From positions 1,364,001-1,428,000 of the forward strand of contig CP167917.1 of NCBI GenBank assembly GCA_041504365.1: 64,000 nt of DNA, written 5' to 3'. This document shows positions 25,740 to 39,504 of this stretch, piece after piece; within the stretch, counting starts at the first letter, position 1; each line of letters opens with the position of its first letter. Under the pieces are notes generated by a model. It was not told where the DNA came from. It saw only the letters and a list, made by a program, of their open reading frames with translations, and did not search any database. A program made the translations under genes and the position numbers. The DNA comes from Dryocola sp. LX212. GTDB taxonomy: Bacteria > Pseudomonadota > Gammaproteobacteria > Enterobacterales > Enterobacteriaceae.

Positions 25740-25815
25740 GGGTCGTTAGCTCAGTTGGTAGAGCAGTTGACTTTTAATCAATTGGTCGCAGGTTCGAATC
25801 CTGCACGACCCACCA
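25740..25815 (+). tRNA. lysT: tRNA-Lys (anticodon UUU), copy 1
   Basis: A 76-nt cloverleaf with encoded CCA. The acceptor GGGTCGT pairs with ACGACCC; the D arm is GCTCAGTTGGTAGAGC; the anticodon stem TTGAC/GTCAA-type arm holds loop CTTTTAA with anticodon TTT at 25773-25775; the T loop is GGTTCGAATCC. The sequence appears identical to the enterobacterial tRNA-Lys. It lies just after the Tol-Pal operon, the position of the seven-gene lysT-valT cluster of E. coli, of which only two tRNA-Lys remain here. Confidence 0.98.
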
Positions 25816-25839
25816 TTTTCAAATTGAAATACGATTAGT

Positions 25840-25954
25840 GAATCGTGAAGGGTTTGAACCAGCAGCAGGTTCGAGTGGAGCGAAGCGACACAGCGTTGCA
25901 TAGCAACGACCCGAAGGGTGAGGCCAAAGCCGAGTCATCCTGCACGACCCACCA
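25840..25954 (+). ncRNA. RtT-like tRNA-associated repeat, copy 1
   Basis: A 115-nt unit downstream of the first tRNA-Lys. It ends in a copy of the tRNA 3' end (TCCTGCACGACCCACCA). It contains several small hairpins: GTTGC-ATA-GCAAC, ACCC-GAA-GGGT and GGC-CAAA-GCC. Its layout resembles the rtT RNA repeats known after the E. coli tyrT tRNAs, which also carry the 3' end of the neighbouring tRNA. It is 102/115 identical by hand count to a second copy at 26089-26203. Confidence 0.6.
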
Positions 25955-25989
25955 TTTTCGATGTTGTAGTAAGCAGTAACCGCATAGCG

Positions 25990-26065
25990 GGGGCGTTAGC
26001 TCAGTTGGTAGAGCAGTTGACTTTTAATCAATTGGTCGCAGGTTCGAATCCTGCACGCCCCACCA
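25990..26065 (+). tRNA. tRNA-Lys (anticodon UUU), copy 2
   Basis: Identical to the first copy except for one compensated base pair of the acceptor stem: GGGGCGT pairs with ACGCCCC, so the fourth pair is G-C rather than U-A. The CTTTTAA anticodon loop and encoded CCA are kept, so it should be functional. Confidence 0.97.
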
Positions 26066-26088
26066 TCCTTTAGATGAAATGCATATGT

Positions 26089-26203
26089 GAAGCGTGAAGG
26101 GTTTGAACCTGCAGCAGGTATGAATGTCGCGAAGCGATAGAGCGTTGCGTAGCAACGACCCGAAGGGTGAGGCCAGAGCCAAGTCATCCTGCACGACCTA
26201 CCA
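26089..26203 (+). ncRNA. RtT-like tRNA-associated repeat, copy 2
   Basis: The second 115-nt unit, after the second tRNA-Lys, with the same hairpin series and ending in a tRNA 3'-end copy with one change (GACCTACCA). Notably its tRNA remnant matches the acceptor of tRNA copy 1 (ACGACC), not that of the tRNA directly before it (ACGCCC). Confidence 0.6.
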
Positions 26204-29110: not shown

Positions 29111-29189
29111 GTCTTCCCGCAAGCAAAGTTAGCAATGCGGTAATTATAACCCTTTCTTATTCAACCTCTTGAATATAATCTTATAAAAA

Positions 29190-29209
29190 AGGAGAGCCTC
29201 AGCTCTCCT
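29190..29209 (-). terminator. Terminator hairpin, distal copy after ybgS
   Basis: Read on the minus strand: AGGAGAGC-TGAG-GCTCTCCT followed by six T, a strong Rho-independent terminator. The same 20-bp hairpin is repeated at 29350-29369. Confidence 0.85.
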
Positions 29210-29349
29210 CAGATTGATGACAACCTTAAAGCGAATGAATTTCGCAAAGATTTCACCGAATAAATGACAAGAAAATCAATTCATTGATTTTCGCCTGCTT
29301 AACACAAAGAAGGAAATATCACCCTTTTTCCTTCTTTGTGAGCAAACTA
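29210..29349 (-). repeat. Terminator-flanked palindromic repeat, copy 1
   Basis: A 140-bp block between two copies of the ybgS terminator hairpin. Minus strand, in order: a 13-bp inverted repeat CACAAAGAAGGAA / TTCCTTCTTTGTG (29340-29303); a perfect 10-bp inverted repeat GAAAATCAAT / ATTGATTTTC (29292-29271); and a GCGAA / TTCGC hairpin (29245-29231). It ends in TCTGAG just before the next hairpin. Its first 75 bp (29345-29271) align without gaps to the block after acrZ with 63 identities by hand count. Confidence 0.8.
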
Positions 29350-29369
29350 AGGAGAGCCTCAGCTCTCCT
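29350..29369 (-). terminator. Terminator hairpin, proximal copy after ybgS
   Basis: The hairpin is identical to the one at 29190-29209, but the downstream run on the minus strand is TTAGTTTGCT, so this copy should be a weak or leaky terminator. It lies 23 bp after the ybgS stop. Confidence 0.75.
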
Positions 29370-29392: not shown

Positions 29393-29761
29393 TTACTGGG
29401 TAGTACCGTCAGTTTTGGTGTCTACGTTGTTCCCGCTGCCGGTTTCAACTTTTTTGTTCATATCCGGACAACGACCGTCTTTACACATGGTGTTTTTATG
29501 GATGTCCTCTTTCGACATATTGTCGCCGGTCGTCGCGCCGCTGTTATCGGGGTGCAGCATGGTGCCGGAATTATTCACGTCATTACCATCCACCCCTTTT
29601 GGGGCGACATTCTGATGCGCGTCCGGGGCAACCTGACCGGCCTCAGCGCTTGAGTTAGCCTGGCCGTTGTTGTTACTCGCAGACCCAGAGTCAGCAGCCA
29701 GAGCTGCACCGCTTGCGACAGAGAGAGTTGCTGTAAAGAAAAGAGTAGCTAATTTATTCAT
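29393..29761 (-). CDS. ybgS: Homeobox-like periplasmic protein YbgS
   Basis: Small periplasmic protein of unknown role. ATG 29761 ([24 protein letters not shown]) gives 122 residues with a clear Sec signal cut after ALA. The mature part is rich in Asn, Gly, Asp and Ser and ends with the conserved [18 protein letters not shown] segment (two cysteines) and DTKTDGTTQ. The frame continues 16 codons upstream, but that start lacks support. The name follows the E. coli homologue; the historic homeobox label carries no functional evidence. Confidence 0.9.
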
Positions 29762-39102: not shown

Positions 39103-39255
39103 ATGTTAGAGTTATTGAAAAGTCTGCTATTTGCCGTGGTCATGGTGCCTGTTGTGATGGCAGTGATCCTCGGTCTAATCTACGGATTGGGTGAAGTCTT
39201 CAACGTCTTCTCGAAAGCTGGTCACCGCGACCAGCAGCCAAAGCAACACCCTTGA
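39103..39255 (+). CDS. acrZ: AcrAB-TolC accessory small membrane protein
   Basis: A 50-residue single-helix inner-membrane protein that binds AcrB and widens the set of drugs exported. It reads [20 protein letters not shown] and then an [16 protein letters not shown] helix end with a charged tail, close to E. coli AcrZ (49 residues). TTGAGGC precedes the ATG. It is divergent from modE and is followed by two copies of the same terminator hairpin flanking a palindromic repeat. Confidence 0.95.
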
Positions 39256-39262
39256 TTTCCAG

Positions 39263-39287
39263 ACGCCCGCATTCGCGGGCGTTTTTT
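39263..39287 (+). terminator. Terminator hairpin, proximal copy after acrZ
   Basis: ACGCCCGC-ATTC-GCGGGCGT followed by T6, a strong Rho-independent terminator 7 bp after the acrZ stop. The same hairpin recurs 165 bp downstream. Confidence 0.92.
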
Positions 39288-39427
39288 ATTGCTGACAAAA
39301 AAGGAAAAAGCGTGGTTTTTCCTTTTTTGTGTTTATCAGCCGAAAATCGATAAATAGATTTTCCTTGTTATTTTCCTGATGCGATCTAATCGCTTCGTTA
39401 CCGTTAAGAGTATTTCATTCGTCTGAG
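39288..39427 (+). repeat. Terminator-flanked palindromic repeat, copy 2
   Basis: The block between two acrZ terminator copies. In order: the inverted repeat ACAAAAAAGGAAAAA / TTTTTCCTTTTTTGT around GCGTGG (39295-39330); GAAAATC / GATTTTC (39342-39363); and GCGAT / ATCGC (39381-39393). It ends in TCTGAG before the second terminator copy. The core 39289-39363 aligns ungapped to the ybgS-side copy with 63/75 identities by hand count. Confidence 0.8.
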
Positions 39428-39447
39428 ACGCCCGCATTCGCGGGCGT
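39428..39447 (+). terminator. Terminator hairpin, distal copy after acrZ
   Basis: An exact copy of the 20-nt hairpin at 39263-39282; the identical stretch including flanks is 24 bp (AGACGCCC to CGTTT). The following run is TTTCTTATT, somewhat weaker than the proximal copy. Confidence 0.85.
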
Positions 39448-39504
39448 TTCTTATTAAAGCCCTTTCTTTTTCTGCCGATAAGTTCTGTATATTCCTGTTC
39501 AGTA

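Follow-up and report, generated by a model that had tools for sequence, protein, structure and literature searches.

A 141-bp gene-less mobile element that inserts into transcription-terminator hairpins, leaves a full hairpin copy on each side and shares its ends with IS1182-family insertion sequences

Results

Two copies of one repeat between duplicated terminator hairpins

The window analysed here is a stretch of 64,000 nucleotides from Dryocola sp. LX212 (GCA_041504365.1, contig CP167917.1, positions 1,364,001 to 1,428,000), a host which we infer from named congeners to be a Cedecea. Downstream of ybgS, which in E. coli lies in the order zitB-ybgS-aroG, the hairpin AGGAGAGCCTCAGCTCTCCT occurs twice without a mismatch, 160 bp apart, where 0 matches are expected by chance. 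Downstream of acrZ a different hairpin, ACGCCCGCATTCGCGGGCGT, occurs at 39263-39282 and again at 39428-39447, exact and 165 bp apart, and with its flanks the identical stretch is 24 bp long (Table 1). In both cases the hairpins enclose the same repeat, in opposite orientation at the two loci, although the acrZ copy is divergent enough to be missed by blastn with the ybgS copy as query. Rfam has no family at either repeat. The observation in the original prediction, that a locus-specific hairpin is duplicated on either side of a shared repeat at both genes, is therefore confirmed, with only a small correction to the exact limits of the element, which has one deletion at ybgS.

Table 1. Features of the window at the two insertion sites, and one further repeat in the same window
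Coordinates	Strand	Feature	Comment
29190-29209		Left copy of the duplicated ybgS terminator hairpin (20 bp)	Preceded by the native A-tract (29184-29189), i.e. the U-tract of the leftward ybgS transcript; distal, intact terminator; single copy in all congeners
29210-29349	+	Element of the 141-bp family (140 bp here)	Left end CAGATTGATGACAAC, right end TTTGTGAGCAAACTA; two internal stem-loops
29271-29292		Internal palindrome GAAAATCAATTCATTGATTTTC	RNA stem-loop; match to the IHF consensus WATCARNNNNTTR on both strands
29304-29339		Subterminal stem-loop ACAAAGAAGGAAA...TTTCCTTCTTTGT	Begins inside the terminal repeat, the same architecture as the IS1182-family ends
29350-29369		Right copy of the duplicated ybgS hairpin	Met first by ybgS transcription; native U-tract lost
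29393-29761	-	ybgS coding sequence	Host gene whose terminator was hit; coordinates read from the sequence
39103-39255	+	acrZ coding sequence	Host gene; read from the sequence
39261-39284		Left copy of the duplicated acrZ terminator hairpin (24 bp)	
39285-39425	-	Second copy of the element (141 bp), reverse orientation	Right end on the acrZ side; last bases (TAAA for TCTA) give the proximal hairpin a six-T tract
39426-39449		Right copy of the duplicated acrZ hairpin	
25740-26203		Tandem duplication of a tRNA gene plus an RtT RNA element (Rfam RF00005 and RF00391)	Units about 250 bp apart

The repeat is a dispersed MITE

A search of the whole 4.7-Mb genome gave about 30 copies or fragments of this short, non-coding repeat. 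Its fixed ends are CAGACTGATGACAAAC...CTTTGTCAGCAATCTA, forming imperfect 15-bp terminal inverted repeats (CAGACTGATGACAAA / TAGATTGCTGACAAA, 12 of 15 identical), and its length is 141 bp in 50 of 59 clean copies, so that it has the size, the dispersal and the termini of a MITE. The left interior (positions 20-60 in our alignment) varies strongly while the total length stays at 141 bp and the right half is nearly invariant; the reason for the fixed length is unexplained. The internal palindrome AATCAATTCATTGATT is strongly conserved at the same position in other copies and may be a host-factor site in the element or simply an RNA stem-loop.

It had been suggested in advance that the other copies should be examined for duplicated terminators, and most of them are indeed flanked by a hairpin that is identical on both sides and different at every locus. 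Of 31 copies and remnants tested in this genome, 22 have a direct repeat scoring 12 or more across the element, and together with copies from four congeners the count is 64 of 89, against 0.2% of 3000 pairs in which left and right flanks of different copies were mismatched; the pattern is far beyond chance genome-wide. The nine own-genome copies without a recognisable duplication are mostly truncated or decayed. At one own-genome copy (L008, C1:2394011-2394151) the two flanking hairpins keep the same stem but have different loops, as if stems are kept by selection while loops drift.

Empty sites

An allele with one terminator and no repeat had been named beforehand as the proof of insertion, and such alleles are common. 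With the ybgS region as query the nearest congener (93% identical) aligns up to the end of the left hairpin and again from the start of the right hairpin, with the two alignments overlapping by 20 bp in the congener, i.e. one hairpin and no element. The other four congeners agree, and E. coli ybgS also has a single terminator and no repeat. We then joined the flanks of 21 other copies and searched them in the five congeners: 18 of these loci have at least one empty ortholog (19 of 22 with ybgS), with 51 empty and 13 filled cells in total, the filled ones mostly showing a gap of 136-143 bp. The acrZ site is empty cleanly in one congener (G001), empty with extra sequence in another (G004) and filled in three.

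Terminators can be hit repeatedly. In G002, a congener inferred to be C. sulfonylureivorans LAM2020 (a further one, G003, is inferred to be C. colo ZA), two copies lie in tandem 20 bp apart in the order hairpin-element-hairpin-element-hairpin (L115, G002:C2:273290-274190; L367 is also of this kind), as a duplicated terminator was hit a second time. The terminator occupied by the own-genome copy L026 is also occupied in congener G005 (L219), which matches a MAG labelled Buttiauxella, but with the element in opposite orientation, so that the two insertions are independent. In another genus (G007) a related element with a decayed left end (L069) sits downstream of ybgS too, apparently an independent insertion at the same terminator.

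The duplicated unit is the hairpin itself

The geometry was analysed on the 59 clean copies. The duplicated unit is 18-27 bp long, with every length used, a mean of 21.7 and a mode of 22. Its centre equals the centre of the hairpin in 48 of 59 cases, 51 of 59 have complementary outermost bases, and moving the window by one base reduces the number of self-paired cases from 34 to 1-3. Duplication length follows the outer-GC stem length with r = 0.60, but with a slope of 0.58 rather than 1; most of the shortfall comes from how many A-T pairs are counted as stem, although a preference for about 22 bp cannot be excluded. Thus the enzyme cut symmetrically at the two feet of the stem, one to three A-T pairs outside the G+C stem. 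A ten-base range is a full helical turn, which is hard to reconcile with a rigid complex on B-form DNA and natural if both attack points meet at the base of an extruded hairpin, this step being inference.

The hairpin met first by RNA polymerase usually loses its U-tract (on average 2.3 T in 8 nt, against 5.5 at the distal copy), so the intact terminator is normally the distal one and the element is expected to be transcribed as 3' UTR. Expression data were not examined. The acrZ copy is an exception, owing to its altered end bases (Table 1). Transcripts bearing the Yersinia YPAL repeat, discussed below, are reportedly present at higher levels (De Gregorio et al.).

Elements with the same ends in other genera

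An exact search for the terminal 15-mer found many hits in some other genera of the family. Around 60 of these ends, in six other genera, we looked for an IS-sized element with the same ends and found only elements of 132, 141, 205, 243, 271, 287 and 314 bp with unrelated interiors, many of them between duplicated hairpins; another genus repeats the 141-bp form. A covariance model searched in 248 Enterobacterales genomes gave hits in three only, our own genome included, because the filters are strict and the interiors differ.

The closest published repeat is YPAL/RU-2 of Yersinia (De Gregorio 2006; PMC2229807, PMC2759123), likewise a small gene-less mobile repeat with empty and filled alleles, which has the left end CAGACTGCTGACAAAC; the Y. 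pestis sequence begins ttCAGACTGCTGACAAAC (PMC2759123). The left 15-mer is identical to ours at 14 of 15 positions (CAGACTGCTGACAAA), while the right end is only partly alike (TTTGTCAATAACCTCA). YPAL is reported to use terminator-like or dyad targets, with duplications of 3-26 bp at or next to dyads (PMC2229807), and insertion into terminator-like dyads near gene 3' ends is also what we observe. However, YPAL is 168 bp long, its interior is unrelated by eye to that of the 141-bp element, and its termini are stated to lack an inverted repeat, which the 141-bp element has. No parent transposase is named in these papers and the whole-hairpin rule is not stated there. A near-identical YPAL copy in a viral (phage) contig (L295) sits between identical hairpins in our analysis. 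The 141-bp repeat is therefore a sister element of YPAL with shared ends, not a YPAL. The Yersinia repeats Kristensenii39 (142 bp) and Aldovae3 (154 bp), listed without assignment in PMC2847712 (table 3), may belong to the same group. ERIC/IRU (RU-1), an enterobacterial intergenic MITE of about 127 bp, has a different sequence and, per the review, TA dinucleotide ends, and neither TA ends nor a TA duplication is found in our element. Group IIC introns use intrinsic terminator hairpins as insertion landmarks, but they are retroelements inserting next to the hairpin without duplicating it, and there is no relation in sequence.

IS1182-family insertion sequences have these ends and duplicate hairpins

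A search for a full-length parent with the same ends was a further check proposed in the original prediction, and autonomous elements of this kind were found. Most 15-mer hits in viral contigs were chance, but three proved to be MITEs and six had IS1182-type transposase starts. One of the viral contigs, L354, has the end CAGACTGCTGACAAAG against a hairpin, then a transposase gene, and the same hairpin again 1.6 kb on. The protein is an IS1182 family transposase (NF033551, 494 bits against a cut-off of 270; PF13751, PF05598, PF01609). Among plasmid relatives at 58-92% identity, nine, in Providencia (L553, L562, L565), Klebsiella (L556, L557), Salinivibrio (L558), Vibrio (L559) and Rhizobium (L560, L561), have the same ends between identical hairpins of 16-28 bp, while the hairpin of L354 itself is 15 bp. 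L552 has a different hairpin at each end, as expected after recombination between two copies, and L554 sits in inverted flanks. These insertion sequences are 1.53-1.61 kb long, share the 15-bp end at 14 of 15 positions and have the same subterminal stem-loop, which starts within the inverted repeat; the MITE has no transposase gene and no recognised internal homology to them. Whether the MITE ends are recognised by this transposase was not assayed.

A search for the transposase in 246 genomes of the family gave a match in 8, none of them Cedecea at the thresholds used. Of four of those loci that were read, only one, the chromosomal copy L539, had the right ends, with a 24-bp hairpin on both sides, and the others apparently represent a different lineage. 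Two distant IS1182 members, ISEfa7 and ISCfr1, showed no hairpin duplication at the copies read.

Discussion

The best explanation, in which we have good confidence, is that the repeat is a non-autonomous transposon (MITE) of the IS1182 family. Wan et al. (PMC5678879) showed that IS1272, a DDE-transposase element of the same family, chooses inverted-repeat targets (21-38 bp in the sequenced strains), proposed to be cruciform, and deletes and replaces the stem-loop without leaving a duplication. They drew three outcomes of attack on a cruciform: IS1272 follows pathway a, replacement, while pathway b, attack at the 5' feet, would duplicate the whole stem-loop; they also note that some IS1182 members were said to target palindromes. 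In our element both hairpin copies are present, so that IS1272-type replacement does not apply, and what we describe corresponds to pathway b in nature, on many independent targets, by IS1182-family elements and by MITEs that share their ends. In the mechanism that we favour, structure-dependent strand transfer at the 5' feet of the extruded hairpin is followed by repair of the single-stranded hairpin arms, which copies the whole hairpin and leaves one complete copy on each side. As both attack points would lie at the base of the stem, the duplication would be as long as the hairpin. The original U-tract would go with the outer copy, so that transcripts would normally read through the element and stop at the distal terminator, carrying the element as structured 3' UTR. 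In this view the transposase has been lost in Cedecea, leaving the MITE orphaned there and the copies as fossils of past mobility; no copies are identical enough to imply current activity.

The analysis itself demonstrates the insertion, the class of target, the symmetric duplication of the entire hairpin, the empty alleles and the ends shared with IS1182-family elements that behave alike. That this transposase moved the MITE rests only on the shared ends (about 15 bp plus a stem-loop) and is an inference, as are the recognition of a cruciform or other extruded hairpin, since cruciform DNA was not examined directly, and the effect on transcripts. The original interpretation, that a small non-autonomous element targets Rho-independent terminators and duplicates them, is supported, with two refinements. 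The duplication appeared unusually long for a transposon because it is the whole hairpin and not a fixed-length stagger, and the suggestion that transcription still ends properly is only partly right, as the proximal copy usually loses its U-tract.

Among the alternatives, only one seems to us a real, if unlikely, possibility, namely that the same transposase reads ordinary double-stranded DNA, with two symmetric half-sites (A-tract/G+C stem junctions) bound by a dimer and no extruded hairpin. The palindrome supplies such half-sites, duplications almost always start with A and end with T (57 and 53 of 59), and there is a modal length. However, the use of all lengths from 18 to 27 bp puts the two attacked phosphates on every face of the helix, which a rigid complex would not tolerate, the stem sequences share no motif, and IS1272 was judged to recognise structure, not sequence (PMC5678879). 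A parent from another family with long duplications is very improbable: IS1202-group elements make duplications of 16-28 bp (PMC10132070), but their ends are TGT...ACA, with no terminator target reported, while ours are YAGAYTG (YAGAYTGMTGACAAA ends), and an IS1182 parent with near-identical ends is in hand. Copying through RNA, considered because the element would be transcribed at gene 3' ends, is equally disfavoured, as the orientation relative to the terminator is mixed (24 left, 13 right, 22 bidirectional), which is not what RNA-primed insertion predicts.

It is also very unlikely that the two-terminator arrangement is ancestral and that empty sites are losses by recombination between the 20-bp direct repeats. 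Such loss is possible between identical flanking repeats, and a few loci (L010, L026) are filled in some species and empty in others in a pattern not obviously tree-like, but ybgS is empty in five of five congeners and in E. coli, the own-genome locus L021 is empty in all five congeners tested, and insertions at one site can be in opposite orientation. Replication slippage or gene conversion around an unrelated repeat can be dismissed almost entirely: hairpins promote slippage, but the same 141-bp unit with fixed ends sits inside different hairpins at many loci, the empty allele lacks exactly one element plus one hairpin, and the tandem arrangement in G002 fits repeated insertion into one target.

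A broader reading, which we consider somewhat more likely than not, is that a whole clade of IS1182-family transposases recognises the extruded hairpin itself (cruciform or four-way junction) and duplicates it entire, by pathway b of the Wan et al. scheme. This structure-reading transposase would then have spawned many unrelated MITE families across Enterobacterales, YPAL included, repeatedly converting single terminators into paired terminators with a structured 3' UTR between them. The analysis names a likely transposase for a class of enterobacterial repeats, including YPAL, whose source is given as unknown in the reviews consulted, and a literature search for IS1182 with YPAL, MITE or rho-independent found nothing that links them. 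The repeats are thereby tied to a family whose best-studied member in those papers does the reverse, deleting the hairpin. A duplication that is as long as the hairpin, at every length over a full helical turn, is a clean natural data set for structure-dependent transposition. It also offers a safe-haven logic for the element, as terminators are outside genes and a full terminator survives the insertion, and it gives a natural source of double terminators and of mobile 3' UTR structure at many genes.
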